Origin: Pseudomonas sp. IAC-BECa141
GTDB taxonomy: Bacteria > Pseudomonadota > Gammaproteobacteria > Pseudomonadales > Pseudomonadaceae
DNA: 64,000 nt
Assembly: GCF_020544405.1 (NCBI RefSeq)
Contig: NZ_CP065410.1
Location: forward strand, 930,001 to 994,000
Direction: 5' to 3'
The notes below the pieces were generated by a model. The model saw only the letters and a list, made by a program, of their open reading frames with translations, was not told the DNA's origin and did not search any database. A program made the translations under genes and the position numbers. Below are positions 39,631 to 44,937 of this stretch, piece by piece. Numbering within the stretch: the stretch's first letter is position 1; each line of letters opens with the position of its first letter.

Positions 39631-39658
39631 ACGCACCGATCATCTATGATCGGTGCGT
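39631..39658. terminator. Perfect hairpin downstream of roxR
   Basis: ACGCACCGATCAT and ATGATCGGTGCGT form a 13-bp perfect stem. The following GTCTGTTCTTTTC is only moderately U-rich. It is probably the roxSR terminator. Confidence 0.65.
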
Positions 39659-39688
39659 GTCTGTTCTTTTCTTTATCGAGCCTTTTCC

Positions 39689-41415
39689 ATGAATCAGAAC
39701 GCTGAATATTCCGCGGTCAACGATGCTGTGCGCGGGCAGTTTTTTCGCAAGGTGTGGGCCATGACCACGCCTTATTGGCGCAGCGAAGAGAAGGGCAAGG
39801 CCTGGACGTTGCTGATCGCCGTTATCGCCCTGTCGCTGTTCAGCGTGGGCATCTCGGTGTGGCTCAACAGTTGGTACAAGGATTTCTACAACGCCCTGCA
39901 AAAGAAGGATGAGGCGGCGTTCTGGCAGTTGATCCTGTACTTCTGCGGGATTGCGACCGTGGCCATTCTCGGTGCGGTGTACCGCCAGTATCTGACGCAA
40001 ATGCTCACTATCCGCTGGCGGGCGTGGCTCACCGAAAACCATTTCAAGCGCTGGCTGGGGCACAAGAACTACTACCAATTGGAGCAGGGCGGTTATACCG
40101 ATAACCCTGACCAACGGATTTCCGAAGACCTCAACACGTTCACCAGCACGACCTTGAGTCTCGCCCTGGGCTTGATCCGCACAATCGTCAGCCTGGTGTC
40201 GTTCTCGATCATTCTGTGGGGCGTGTCCGGCAGCATCGAAGTTTTCGGCATCGAAATTCCGGGCTACATGTTCTGGTGTGCGCTGCTGTACGCGGCGGTC
40301 GGCAGCTGGCTGACACACTTGATCGGTCGACGTCTGATCGGCCTGAACAACCAGCAACAACGGTTCGAAGCCGACCTGCGTTTCTCCATGGTGCGGGTGC
40401 GCGAAAACGCCGAGAGCATCGCGCTGTACAACGGCGAGCCCAACGAAAACCGTCGCCTGAGCAGCCGCTTCGGTCTGGTCTGGCACAACTTCTGGGACAT
40501 CATGCGAGTGTCCAAGCGCCTGACGTTCTTCACCTCGGGTTATGGCCAGATCGCAATCATCTTTCCCTTCATCGTTGCGGCCCCCGTTACCTGTCCGGCA
40601 AGATCGAACTGGGTGAGTTGATGCAGATCAACTCGGCGTTTGGCAACGTGCAGGAGAACTTCAGCTGGTTCATCGATGCCTATGCGTCGCTGGCGGCCTG
40701 GAAAGCCACCTCTGATCGTCTGTTGAGTTTCCGGCAGGCAATGACCGATAACGAAGAGCGTTCGCCGGCCATCGATGTGCAGAATCAGGGCGATGAGCTG
40801 AAGGTTCATAACCTGGGCCTGGATCTGGCCGACGGTCGTCACCTGCTGACCAGCGCTGACATGACGGTGGAAGCGGGCGACCGCGTGATGCTCAGCGGCC
40901 GTTCCGGCAGCGGCAAGTCGACACTGCTGCGGGCAATGGGGCATCTGTGGCCGGCGGGGCACGGCAGTATTCGCTTGCCGGCGTCGCGTCATCTGTTTCT
41001 GCCGCAAAAACCGTATCTGCCGATCGGCACCCTGCGCGACGCCTTGAGTTATCCACAACCGGGCGAAACCTACGCGCCAGAGCGTTACGCACAAGTGCTG
41101 GAGACTTGCCGCTTGTCGCATCTGGTGGCGCGACTGGACGAGGCCAACCACTGGCAGCGCATGCTCTCGCCGGGCGAACAGCAACGTCTGGCCTTCGCTC
41201 GCGCGCTGCTCTATGCACCGCAATGGCTGTACATGGACGAAGCGACGTCGGCGATGGACGAAGAAGACGAAGCCACGTTGTATCAGGCGCTGATCGATCA
41301 GTTGCCGGGTCTGAGCATCGTCAGCGTCGGCCATCGCAGCAGCCTCAAGCGCTTCCATCCACGGCATGTGCGCATCGATGGCGGGCATCTGGTCGAGCAG
41401 ACCGTGACCGCCTGA
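39689..41415 (+). pseudogene. SbmA/YddA-like ABC transporter (permease-ATPase fusion), split by a one-base frameshift
   Basis: The frame starts at ATG 39689 (MNQNAEYSAV) and encodes the membrane domain with WLNSWYKDFYNALQKKD, NPDQRISEDL and YNGEPNE, all typical of the SbmA/BacA/YddA group. It stops at 40621. Homology continues in another frame from RYLSGKIELGELMQINSAF through Walker A (SGRSGSGKSTLL), LSPGEQQRLAFARALL and YMDEATSAMDEE to 41415. The break is at GCGGCCCCCGTTAC (C-run 40581-40585), where one extra base would restore ...VAAPRYLSG. Repaired, it would be about 575 aa, the usual length. Either the gene is inactivated or the base was lost in sequencing. YddA-like proteins export or import unknown peptides or lipids. 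Confidence 0.88.
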
Positions 41416-41433: not shown

Positions 41434-41459
41434 GTGGGAGCTGGCCTGTCAGCTCCCAC
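41434..41459. repeat. Single REP-like palindrome
   Basis: GTGGGAGCTG pairs with CAGCTCCCAC around GCCTGT between the ABC gene and the GntR regulator. Confidence 0.75.
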
Positions 41460-42315: not shown

Positions 42316-42687
42316 TCATACGGTGTCGACTATAGATAGCGGTAATACCTTTGATGGTTGCGTGGTTCCGTCTATCGTTGCGATGTAGCTGATTTCTGCG
42401 GACCCATTTTTGAATTGATAGTTGAAAAGGCTTCTTGAATCCAGAGAGACCTGTTCCTTTCCGGCTGCCGAGGTCGTAAATCTAGTGCCCCATGGTATAG
42501 GGGGGCTAAAGCGGTCGGGCTTGACTGCAATTGTTATGTCGATCTGTTGGTTTGCTGCTTTCCCCTCATAAAAGAAATCGAGTAGAAAAACGCCATCCAG
42601 TTTTTTGGTGTCCAGCACTCCATTTGGCGCCTGAGGTGCTTCCGCTGGGGCAAGTAGATTTAATGGGGATAATTGTAGTGTCTGCAT
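42316..42687 (-). CDS. Small hypothetical protein of the LexA-box cassette (fourth gene)
   Basis: A 123-aa protein starting at ATG 42687 after AAGGAG. The first 25 residues are Pro/Ala/Leu-rich (LSPLNLLAPAEAPQAPNG). The rest alternates hydrophobic and polar residues in the manner of an immunoglobulin-like beta sandwich (GVFLLDFFYEG, QIDITIAVKP, SAEISYIATIDG, KVLPLSIVDTV). There is no signal peptide. The gene is markedly richer in A/T than its neighbours, a sign of foreign origin. I do not recognise a family. Confidence 0.65.
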   Translation of the reverse strand: MQTLQLSPLNLLAPAEAPQAPNGVLDTKKLDGVFLLDFFYEGKAANQQIDITIAVKPDRFSPPIPWGTRFTTSAAGKEQVSLDSRSLFNYQFKNGSAEISYIATIDGTTQPSKVLPLSIVDTV

Positions 42688-42819
42688 GAGAAACTCTCCT
42701 TGGGTCGGGGTGAGTGCAATCTTTTTGTACCCCGCCAGTTGAGCTTCTTTGTGTGCCGGTGTGCCACTGTCAGAAATAACAGTGGCGACAAGCGGTCGCA
42801 ATTGATCCCCCGCGCGTGA

Positions 42820-43194
42820 TCAGGCCTCGATATATAGTCTCAACGGCTCCGAACACGGCTCCAGACTGGCCTCATCAGCAAACTTGTAGCGCAGCTCAAC
42901 GGTACTGTTCAGGTACTTTTCCAGCTCGAACTTCGGGATGCTCAGTTCGATCCCGGTCAGGCCGACCATGTCATCGAGTGCTTCATCCCAGACGCCGGTC
43001 GGTTCCGACAGGCCCAGCCATTCAGGCTCTTCAGGATCATCGCCGAGAATCGGGTACACATCCCAGTTCGGCGGTGTGTTCTGCCCGTCGGGTACCCGGA
43101 CGATCAAATCGTCATCCAGAGTCGACAGCCGCAGGATGATCGAATCGCTGGCGTGGTCGGGGAATTGCGGAAGGTGTGCAGCGGCAAACGTCAT
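42820..43194 (-). CDS. Small hypothetical protein of the LexA-box cassette (third gene)
   Basis: A 124-aa acidic protein starting at ATG 43194 after AAGGAGAA. Its pattern again suggests a beta sandwich: SIILRLSTLDDDLIVRVPDG, a Pro/Trp-rich centre (PPNWDVYPILGDD), and TVELRYKFADEASLEPCSEP before PLRLYIEA. The last part resembles the ends of Ig-like repeats in large Pseudomonas surface proteins, but that is only a likeness. No signal peptide. Confidence 0.65.
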   Translation of the reverse strand: MTFAAAHLPQFPDHASDSIILRLSTLDDDLIVRVPDGQNTPPNWDVYPILGDDPEEPEWLGLSEPTGVWDEALDDMVGLTGIELSIPKFELEKYLNSTVELRYKFADEASLEPCSEPLRLYIEA

Positions 43195-43296
43195 GCTTCG
43201 TTCTCCTTGAAAGATCTGCCGCGATCCTTCGCGGCAGTCGTCGCACTTTACCCGGCGAATCGGTGAGGCGCGCCGGGGCAATCTTGTCCGGGCATT

Positions 43297-43488
43297 TCAG
43301 CTCTGGGGCAGAATCGAGCGATCGACCCTGACCGCCAGCTTGCCCGGGCCGGGCCTGACGTCGAACGTCGCCAGGCCCTGAGCATCCACCGACGTGCGGG
43401 CGATGGCCATGCCGTCACGCAGCAATTGCAGCGGCGCACCTTTCAACGATTGGCCCGAGGCCAGTTCCACTTTCAATTTGATCGTCAT
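43297..43488 (-). CDS. Very small hypothetical protein of the LexA-box cassette (second gene), transthyretin/Cna-B-like pattern
   Basis: A 63-aa protein starting at ATG 43488 after AAGGAGTG; the gap from the phospholipase-like gene is 11 bases. GAPLQLLRDGMAIARTSVDA and GLATFDVRPG look like a single carboxypeptidase-regulatory or Cna-B-type beta domain. No signal peptide. The strong ribosome site and tight spacing argue that it is translated. Confidence 0.6.
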   Translation of the reverse strand: MTIKLKVELASGQSLKGAPLQLLRDGMAIARTSVDAQGLATFDVRPGPGKLAVRVDRSILPQS

Positions 43489-43499
43489 CGAATCACTCC

Positions 43500-44798
43500 T
43501 TAATTCGTGTTGCCGGTTGGTTGGTAGTCCTTGAGCAGCAGGTAAGTGCTCCAGCCCCACCAGTCGTCGACGGTGGTGGTGTCGTTGAGGTTGTTGACGT
43601 CCTTGCGCCGCAGGACTTTGTTGCCCTGAAGGCGGAACAGTGGCGAGAAGTTGTTGGCCGGATCCAGCACGGCTGTCAGATCCGGCACCCGTTGCAGCGC
43701 GTTGAAGGTGGTCGGCACGCTGCCGCTTGAATACGCGGCATACACCTCGTCCGCCGAATCCTGCACTGCCTGACTCACCTGCTTTCGGTTGTCGGCATCA
43801 GTGGCGTCGAAGTAGCGCTTGTCACCAAACGCACGCCATTGTTCGCCATGTCCGTTGCGTACCTTGAGGCCGAACTTGCTGTCTTCATCGTGCATGAAGC
43901 GAGTGATGAGCGAACCCAGGTCGCTCGGCGTCACTGCTGCGGCCATGGCCTTGCGCGGCACCCGCAGATGCCCGGAGGAGAACAGGTCGGTGAGGTAGTG
44001 ATCGGCGAACGCGTTCATCGCGTAGGCCCGTTCCAGTTGCAGTTCGTCCTGACTGGCGTGGGCGGCAGCGGCGACTTGCAGGGCGGCGGTATGCCCGGCG
44101 ATGTAGGCCTGACGTGCCCATTCGCCGAAGTGGTCGGCGTTTTTCGCCGCCAGTTTCAGATAGCGCCCGAGCGGGAACAGGGCCGAGGCAAAACTGCCGC
44201 CGCCGGTGATCTTGTTCCACTCTTCCGACAACGTATCTCCCAAGGCGTCATAGGCCTCATGGGGTTGCTTGCCGTCCTTGATCGCCTGTTTAACCGCGTC
44301 GATCTCTTTTTGCATGATCGCGAGAATCTGTACCGCTTCGGCCTTTGAAGCCGGCAGCGCGGCGAGGGTGTCGAAGGCTGCCGTGAAGCGTTGCAAGCGA
44401 TCCGCCGGTGTCGCGCCTTCATTGATCGGACGGTCGACGACGCCATAGAAATCTCCTCCCAGCGCCAGCACCTGGCCGTAGGTCAGTGCCGATCCATTTG
44501 GCAGATGCAAGGGCACGTTTTGCGCAAGAAGCGGCTCGGCATTTTCACCGAAACGCAGCCGTGTGTTATCGCCGATAGCTTTGTGTTCCGCGCCCTCGAA
44601 GCGTAACTGCGGTTTGCCTTTCAAGGCTTGAGCGGGCAGGGCGGTCGCAGGTTCGACATCGCTGTGCGAGTCGGCGATATGCAGCAACAGATGCGGATTT
44701 TCGGTACTGAAAGCGATGCCGTCGCAGGTGAAAAGATCATCGAACCGGGCGATGACCGGCGTGGGTTTTTTCAGGCATTTTGTTTGTAGACCGGACAT
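43500..44798 (-). CDS. Zinc-dependent phospholipase C / P1-nuclease-like protein, first gene of a LexA-box cassette
   Basis: A 432-aa protein starting at ATG 44798 after AAGGAGAAAG. Residues about 225-290 hold a helical metal-site pattern: HFGEWARQAYIAGHTAALQV, then ERAYAMNAFADHYLTDLFSSGH and LRVPRK, with spaced His and Asp residues as in the zinc-dependent phospholipase C/S1-P1 nuclease fold. An N-terminal part with beta character precedes it. There is no signal peptide, which is odd for this class and suggests release by lysis or a specialised secretion system. Four minus-strand genes follow one another from here. The LexA box at 44839-44854 implies induction by DNA damage. The substrate (lipid or nucleic acid) is not settled. 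Confidence 0.72.
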   Translation of the reverse strand: MSGLQTKCLKKPTPVIARFDDLFTCDGIAFSTENPHLLLHIADSHSDVEPATALPAQALKGKPQLRFEGAEHKAIGDNTRLRFGENAEPLLAQNVPLHLPNGSALTYGQVLALGGDFYGVVDRPINEGATPADRLQRFTAAFDTLAALPASKAEAVQILAIMQKEIDAVKQAIKDGKQPHEAYDALGDTLSEEWNKITGGGSFASALFPLGRYLKLAAKNADHFGEWARQAYIAGHTAALQVAAAAHASQDELQLERAYAMNAFADHYLTDLFSSGHLRVPRKAMAAAVTPSDLGSLITRFMHDEDSKFGLKVRNGHGEQWRAFGDKRYFDATDADNRKQVSQAVQDSADEVYAAYSSGSVPTTFNALQRVPDLTAVLDPANNFSPLFRLQGNKVLRRKDVNNLNDTTTVDDWWGWSTYLLLKDYQPTGNTN

Positions 44799-44838
44799 TT
44801 CTTTCTCCTTGATATGTCATCGGTGAGTTTTTATTTAA

Positions 44839-44854
44839 CTGTATGCATATACAG
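44839..44854 (-). promoter_or_regulatory. LexA (SOS) box in the promoter of the phospholipase-like cassette
   Basis: CTGTATGCATATACAG fits CTGT-N8-ACAG with an alternating A/T-rich core, close to the E. coli and Pseudomonas LexA consensus. On the minus strand TTGACT (44853-44858) overlaps one end as a -35, and TAAATA lies at the other as a weak -10, so LexA binding would block the promoter. It is 41-56 bases upstream of the cassette start codon. Confidence 0.8.
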
Positions 44855-44937
44855 TCAAATCCACTCTAGACGAGAAATTTCCTACGTCAAAAAGAAATCC
44901 TGTCCGACAAAAAATGCCCCCCAGCGATGAAATGCAG

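Follow-up and report, generated by a model that had tools for sequence, protein, structure and literature searches.

The closest described relative of the system considered here is PlcC of Pseudomonas fluorescens MFN1032, a phospholipase C (PLC) with lecithinase activity that is found in culture supernatants, is made without a signal peptide, and has a secretion route left unexplained in the passages on PlcC of the 2008 report (PMC2613904), to which all our statements on that report are confined. In these passages PlcC is described as contributing to haemolysis, with relatives of 437 amino acids (aa) in strain Pf0-1, 546 aa in Pf-5 and 544 aa in P. entomophila, and with an operon that holds two unknown genes in Pf0-1 and one in Pf-5 (PMC2613904). 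Control by a GntR-type regulator was suggested there, and the consensus T.GT-N(0-3)-AC.A was noted just upstream of MFN1032 plcC. Here we describe a stretch of 64,000 nucleotides from Pseudomonas sp. IAC-BECa141 (contig NZ_CP065410.1, positions 930,001 to 994,000 of the forward strand), called the window throughout, in which a gene that by sequence comparison is an orthologue of this P. fluorescens phospholipase C (lecithinase) gene stands behind a candidate operator of LexA, the repressor of the DNA-damage (SOS) response, and is followed by a small partner gene.

A zinc metallophospholipase C family of bacteria and fungi is reportedly the subject of work by Aurass et al. from 2013, as its title has it, and the family of Legionella PlcA would appear to be the same one. 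Legionella PlcA is 43% identical to PlcC (PMC2613904), and according to the passages concerned in PMC6617341, PlcA and PlcB of Legionella are type II secretion substrates and its PlcC is Dot/Icm-dependent. As to the SOS regulon, the relevant part of PMC8544851 reports 12 genes of strain SBW25 within 151 bp of a LexA site, five of which were raised by both plasmids; PFLU4242 of that report was considered as a possible plcC and dropped, as it is a DUF262/DUF1524 protein. No link between plcC and LexA was found in the open PubMed Central literature searched.

The LexA box and its conservation

According to the open reading frame (ORF) list of the window, four ORFs of 432, 63, 124 and 123 aa (genes 1 to 4, Table 1) follow one another on the minus strand with good ribosome sites. 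The palindrome CTGTATGCATATACAG, which fits CTGT-N8-ACAG around an A/T-rich core, lies 41-56 bases upstream of the ATG of gene 1 (44796-44798), which is preceded by the strong ribosome site AAGGAG at 44805-44810 (judged by eye). Both statements had been made in an earlier note on this DNA, and both are confirmed by reading the sequence. Within the window the pattern was found three times against 0.74 expected, and at least three times in 6 of 100 shuffles; as such a count is weak evidence, conservation was tested instead. The two further occurrences were rejected as LexA boxes, the one at 42767 as the stem of an RNA-like hairpin upstream of gene 4 (9 bp in the window, with a 10-bp stem variant in locus L052) and the one at 41446 for its GC-rich core. 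Matches to CTGT-N8-ACAG upstream of small genes were also seen in L002 and L006.

Among the best 80 of 168 matching contig loci, all Pseudomonas, a perfect CTGT-N8-ACAG is present upstream of the plcC start in 79, at a distance of 54-57 bases in 77 loci and of 76 bases in two (perhaps a matter of start-codon choice), and the sole locus without a perfect box, L121, has ACAT for ACAG, a single mismatch. These same 80 loci, 1.2 Mb of sequence, hold 105 matches to the pattern in total, 26 of them elsewhere than at the plcC box. When 80 loci (79 and the window) are aligned on the box, the information per column averages 1.80 bits within it, against 0.93 in the upstream flank and 0.58 in the downstream flank. 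Two other sets of loci overlap with the first in genomes or contigs, and the counts are not additive. Among 95 genomes, comprising the window's own and relatives, gene 1 has a match in 22, and 21 of these 22 loci, the window included, carry a perfect box, the exception being a weak match outside the genus (35% over 69 residues). In the third set, obtained with P. putida-type and Tistrella proteins as queries, the box is found at 35 of 36 loci, again including the window and also the 539-549 aa forms, and the exception, L161, comes from another family.

Loci without plcC served as a control and were drawn from the search with gene 3, which had matches in 45 of 298 genomes and supplied 30 loci; L167-L173, close matches from plcC-bearing genomes, were left out, and from the other 23 (L174-L196) two, L175 and L189, were set aside for having plcC in the stretch or the genome. 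None of the 21 loci left, which share the flanks of the plcC loci, has the box between the divergent dehydratase gene and gene 3, an interval that adds up to 6,651 bases over the set, nor does one appear on relaxing the eight fixed bases by one mismatch while the core keeps at least 6 A/T. The box therefore belongs to plcC and not to the place. Twenty of the 21 genomes are without a plcC match, and the 21st, G055, has plcC, gene 2 and the box on another contig of 10 kb with other neighbours (L031, G055:C77), its usual slot (L176) being occupied by gene 3 without plcC.

In the strain's own 6.2 Mb genome CTGTATNNNNATACAG occurs at five places, and its reversed control at none. The other sites (L162, L164, L165 and L166) adjoin genes for radical SAM, YebG-type, type III topoisomerase-like and small unknown proteins; the YebG-type and PA0069-type radical SAM names were given by recognition, and such genes we presume to be SOS members in P. 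aeruginosa, a membership on which a literature search found nothing. SOS control of plcC, as proposed in the earlier note, is thus well supported by sequence, the box being kept with plcC and missing where plcC is missing, and LexA would be expected to bind and repress here.

The promoter scan, with spacer limits of 16-18 nt, reports TTGACG and TAGAGT with 16 nt between them on the minus strand (44890-44863), which as one of two sites against 0.9 expected is weak alone. In the 80 aligned loci, T, T, G, A, C and G are the commonest letters of the six -35 columns (88-100%), and the -10 columns are partly conserved, with 88% at the first, second and last letters and 46-80% at the others. The box begins 8 bases past the -10 hexamer, so that LexA would cover the transcription start. 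A different pair, TTGACT and TAAATA, had been proposed as flanking the box; it has a 15-nt spacer, overlaps the box and goes unreported by the 16-18 nt scan, and is not retained.

plcC and gene 2 form the unit

All four genes had been taken for one SOS cassette, and co-occurrence ties only gene 2 to gene 1. The sample comprises 298 Pseudomonas genomes per gene search, the draws being taken as identical since the listed handles agree. A plcC match is present in 100 of the 298, three of which (G095, G123 and G175) are fragments or weak matches. Gene 2 occurs in 57 genomes, and all 57 also have plcC (p = 4e-34); gene 3 occurs in 45, with some weak matches, and is found with plcC in 12 against 15.1 expected (p = 0.31), these p values ignoring genome kinship. 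Gene 4 is rare, with matches in three genomes including the window's own, one of them weak. At the level of loci, wherever the plcC product has at least 430 aa (60 of 60 loci, four of which were missed by the pattern search and confirmed by eye in the sequence) gene 2 begins at most 15 bases after the plcC stop, and it does so in none of the 21 of the 385-aa group.

When plcC-less loci were compared with the window, similarity ended at 44888-44925 in 16 of the 21, and it resumed at 43298 in one locus, while in nine it did so at 43257 or 43251 and in six at points deeper inside. These edges mark out promoter, box, plcC and gene 2 as a present/absent unit of about 1.6 kb. Gene 3 also occurs alone, without the box, in the same slot of plcC-less loci, and by these comparisons gene 3, leader and hairpin included, is a separate occupant of that slot and not a member of the unit.

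The ratio of nonsynonymous to synonymous substitution rates (dN/dS) is 0.06-0.14 for gene 1, 0.21-0.32 for gene 2 and 0.06-0.23 for gene 3, so that the computable pairs, at 0.06-0.32, point to purifying selection on genes 1-3; for gene 4 it is 0.71 in the one pair tested, the gene 4 value and two of the gene 3 estimates having been obtained by the Nei-Gojobori method (NG86). Against Pfam-type profiles gene 2 gives sub-threshold CarboxypepD_reg/Ig-like matches only, and its product may act on or with the enzyme. The joint loss of gene 2 and of the extension at the N-terminus of PlcC was considered as a sign of contact between the two and carries little weight, because the tree needs one event only. 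No lysis gene was seen among the ORFs of the unit, and none of the four proteins matches a PHROG family at E < 0.01.

Identity of the enzyme

Homologues of gene 1 carry the name phospholipase in the homologue search, and the 385-aa orthologues are 69-72% identical to it. The primer PLC1 of PMC2613904 encodes MSGLELA (codons read by eye), which is the N-terminus of the L152 and L154 proteins, and the flanks of gene 1 match those of the PlcC locus as described in that report. For the fold model of gene 1 the top 12 PDB rows are all zinc PLC, which assigns the modelled protein to the zinc-PLC fold and bears out the earlier assignment to zinc-dependent PLC-type enzymes; S1/P1 nuclease, the other suggestion of the earlier note, is not among the PDB rows listed for the model. 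Of the His, Asp and Glu residues that are candidate metal ligands, seven (H72, H236, H267, D271, H277, H303 and E305) are invariant in 101 of 101 sequences, and D116 and H223 in 100 of 101. By sequence, gene 1 has no convincing match in Pfam, NCBIfam, PADLOC or PHROGs and, searched alone, no credible match in the PDB; a PADLOC match to Drt5 (E 0.007) covers only 71 residues and was taken as chance. The protein has no signal peptide as judged by eye, as had been remarked before, and the same absence is reported for the orthologue in the passages of PMC2613904. The window PlcC may have the lecithinase activity that is reported for the 385-aa orthologue only.

Across 81 loci (the 80 and the window) the PlcC products are of about 385 aa (n=21), about 432 aa (n=45) or about 546 aa (n=15), and the window PlcC has the N-terminal extension and is without the C-terminal domain seen in the long forms. 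In a phylogeny built on the catalytic region all 385-aa forms fall on a single branch (100/100), as do the 546-aa forms in this sample.

Some relatives carry further domains. In the long forms P0101, P0118 and P0146 the C-terminal domain, at profile positions of about 429-552, matches a spider latrotoxin domain of the PDB with a best E of 5.6e-11 in one search and 2.4e-11 in another; this domain is absent from the window protein. The metagenome relatives P0181, P0205 and P0218 are fused to a Tectonin (PF19193) domain, and P0214 has at its end a weak DUF7910/Fascin-like match instead.

Features of the locus

Table 1. Positions of the features discussed, in the window except for the last row, which gives positions in the named loci (GC3, GC content at third codon positions; vWA, von Willebrand factor A).
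Feature	Position	Strand	Remarks
Gene 1	43500..44798	-	plcC orthologue by sequence, 432 aa, zinc-dependent phospholipase C family; catalytic domain at about residues 67-360
Gene 2	43297..43488	-	63-aa partner; possibly a single CarboxypepD_reg/Ig-like domain
Gene 3	42820..43194	-	124 aa; neighbour outside the SOS unit
Gene 4	42316..42687	-	123 aa; GC3 low (0.46); rare, fast-evolving neighbour
Present/absent unit	43258..44900 (edges approximate)	-	promoter, LexA box, plcC and gene 2
-35 hexamer TTGACG, plcC promoter	44885..44890	-	promoter scan and column conservation
-10 hexamer TAGAGT	44863..44868	-	spacer of 16 nt; the LexA box begins 8 bases further on
LexA box CTGTATGCATATACAG	44839..44854	.	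putative palindromic operator, roughly over the expected transcription start
Hairpin CTGCCGCGA-AGGA-TCGCGGCAG	43216..43237	-	between genes 2 and 3; without T run; in the leader accompanying gene 3
Hairpin GCCACTGTT-ATTTCT-GACAGTGGC	42763..42786	-	upstream of gene 4; 9-bp stem
PLC relative, 65-71 aa protein and third protein	L123:8797-12021; L209:3570-6792; L211:3269-6516		no LexA box; the third protein has a vWA domain in L123 and by eye resembles it in L209

The slot before the GntR gene (window 42316-43257; L043-L122 and L174-L196) is variable and holds many differing small orphan genes of about 65-125 aa, some of them with low GC3; a transposase-like ORF is also present in L027. Further along, an ABC transporter gene at window positions 39653-41415 seems to be split into two overlapping frames near 40.6 kb, and in several relatives it is one intact ORF of 575 aa.

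Discussion

On balance we lean towards the view that the window encodes an SOS-induced cytoplasmic zinc-dependent phospholipase C within a two-gene LexA-repressed unit, the enzyme probably being released by lysis. LexA sitting on an operator just downstream of the -10 hexamer would shut the plcC promoter, and DNA damage, by removing LexA, would allow PlcC and the 63-aa product of gene 2 to be made. Given that the enzyme has no signal peptide, its likeliest exit would be the lysis of some SOS-induced cells, for example by the lysis genes of a phage-tail bacteriocin or a prophage, and once outside it could cut phosphatidylcholine-containing membranes, most plausibly those of eukaryotic neighbours; this release step and this target are what we infer. 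An SOS promoter combined with the lack of a signal peptide is the arrangement of lysis-released proteins. Baseplate_J has four matches in the genome of the strain, two of which (about 1.305 and 1.325 Mb) are separated by 20 kb, and phage-tail islands able to supply lysis are thus likely to be present. The logic of colicin-like release appears reasonable here, and it is possible, as a more tentative proposal, that Pseudomonas turns this logic, in which DNA damage releases LexA and some cells are sacrificed, against eukaryotes whose membranes bear phosphatidylcholine, for example grazing protozoa or fungi, with a membrane-lipid enzyme and its partner as the payload.

Several points weigh against this view: the unit shows no lysis gene among its ORFs, and of the other points three come from the passages on PlcC in PMC2613904 and one from more distant relatives. 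In supernatants holding the lecithinase, keto-deoxyoctulosonate (KDO), a marker of lipopolysaccharide, was undetected, an argument against massive lysis there. The enzyme was present in lysogeny broth (LB) cultures, with no DNA-damaging agent mentioned in these passages, so that drug-driven SOS induction is not required. Plasmid-borne plcC restored lecithinase and not haemolysis to the mutant, and the role in haemolysis is therefore not clean (PMC2613904). Lastly, CTGT-N8-ACAG was not found upstream of the related genes on a Rhizobium leguminosarum plasmid, in genome G350 and in the second copy of genome G132, and SOS control is thus not a property of the wider family.

The Rhizobium plasmid encodes a 536-aa enzyme (50% identity over 339 residues), accompanied by a protein of 65 aa that shares 35% identity with gene 2 and by one with a vWA domain; the second copy of G132 comprises a 550-aa enzyme, a 66-aa protein (52% to gene 2) and, judged by eye, a vWA-like protein; and G350 (L211) has proteins of 568, 71 and 349 aa in the same order, the 71-aa protein being dropped as a relative of gene 2 as blastp shows no similarity. 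GTTC-N7-GTTC and GAAC-N7-GAAC, which we take to be the LexA motifs of alpha-proteobacteria, were absent near the Rhizobium gene start, with one match 9 kb off. By these relatives the pair of enzyme and small protein predates the SOS switch, and one might speculate that LexA control was gained in the lineage residing at the sugar-gene locus. A phylum-wide sample of 398 genomes gave six matches, five of them Pseudomonas, and three plasmid records had a match, only the Rhizobium one being convincing. Among 50,697 phage records there was no match, and viral contigs, scanned with two peptide patterns only, gave no confirmed relative; nothing in these searches thus marks the unit as a phage gene.

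Of the alternatives, the one that survives best is that a LexA-controlled PlcC leaves living cells by a dedicated route (flagellar/type III, type VI or other) and not by lysis, which we nevertheless regard as unlikely: no secretion gene was recognised by eye in the listed neighbourhoods, no search having been aimed at them, and an SOS promoter is, by general knowledge, typical of lysis-released proteins. What speaks for such a route is the presence of PlcC outside the cell without release of KDO, together with the reduced flagellin in the supernatant of the plcC mutant, in connection with which flagellar export was discussed in the passages concerned (PMC2613904). Still less likely is an action of PlcC inside its producer, whether in SOS membrane phospholipid turnover or in altruistic self-lysis, with gene 2 as the restraint. 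The SOS promoter, the missing signal peptide and the tightly linked small gene 2 would all suit this idea, but the activity was found outside the cell, the 385-aa clade has no gene 2 (0/21), and a strain with the 385-aa plcC on a plasmid under a constitutive promoter grew and was studied (PMC2613904). As that clade keeps the box (20/21) without gene 2 and the constitutive strain grew, the role of immunity partner, one of those that the earlier note had offered for the small proteins, is weakened for gene 2 as well.

A single SOS-controlled toxin system of four genes, with all three small proteins as carrier, targeting or immunity partners, is very improbable and already largely refuted by co-occurrence. 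In this genome the four genes do run in the same direction behind one LexA promoter, and transcription may continue into genes 3 and 4, the only minus-strand terminator-like site of the terminator scan, between genes 3 and 4 (42799-42785), being weak; however, gene 3 has no association with plcC and is found at the same site without plcC and without the box, and gene 4 is present in 3 of 298 genomes. Least credible of all is the 2008 suggestion that the neighbouring GntR-type regulator controls PlcC, with the LexA-like box as an incidental feature, for the consensus reported upstream of MFN1032 plcC (PMC2613904) coincides with the box in none of the 80 loci, has no occurrence within 150 bases before the start in 66 of them and lies elsewhere in that stretch in 14, whereas the LexA box is kept in 79 of the 80 and persists in L031, on a contig away from the sugar genes.

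If an SOS-induced PLC released by lysis and directed at eukaryotes is indeed what the unit provides, about a third of Pseudomonas species (100/298 sampled) would have an anti-eukaryote weapon under SOS control. The SOS response of this large environmental genus would also gain a lipid enzyme among its products. If LexA controls PlcC, haemolysis and lecithinase production by P. fluorescens would in part be a DNA-damage response, raised by agents that trigger SOS. This would offer an answer to the question left in print of how a PLC without a signal peptide is regulated and how it gets out. The earlier note knew of no described system of this kind, which needs correction, as PMC2613904 had described the enzyme, its locus and some of the operon in 2008; a LexA link was not seen in the passages of that report, and what the sequence comparisons show is a strongly conserved SOS connection of a known phospholipase and a single true partner gene.

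Comparison with known systems

P. fluorescens PlcC of MFN1032, and the PLC of Preuss et al. cited in the same passages (PMC2613904), belong to the same enzyme family and the same locus as the window PlcC, and the MFN1032 locus, like that of the window, has a divergent dihydrodipicolinate-synthase-like gene upstream and a GntR gene downstream. It differs in that it is of the 385-aa clade, without the extension and without gene 2, and in that GntR was proposed and LexA does not appear in those passages. Compared with Legionella PlcA, PlcB and PlcC, the window PlcC has no such export signal known and has an SOS promoter. The PLC of Bacillus cereus and the clostridial alpha-toxins, which are exported with signal peptides, have solved structures that share 12-15% identity with gene 1 in fold alignments and show no sequence match to it. 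In the case of colicins and S-type pyocins, the window unit differs in that it shows neither a visible lysis gene nor a recognised receptor or translocation domain, and in that gene 2 is missing in one clade. What it shares with them is an SOS-type promoter, the lack of a signal peptide and an enzyme with a small linked gene, which makes the unit a functional analogue of these bacteriocins, and not a member, with an enzyme of a class that acts on phospholipid.

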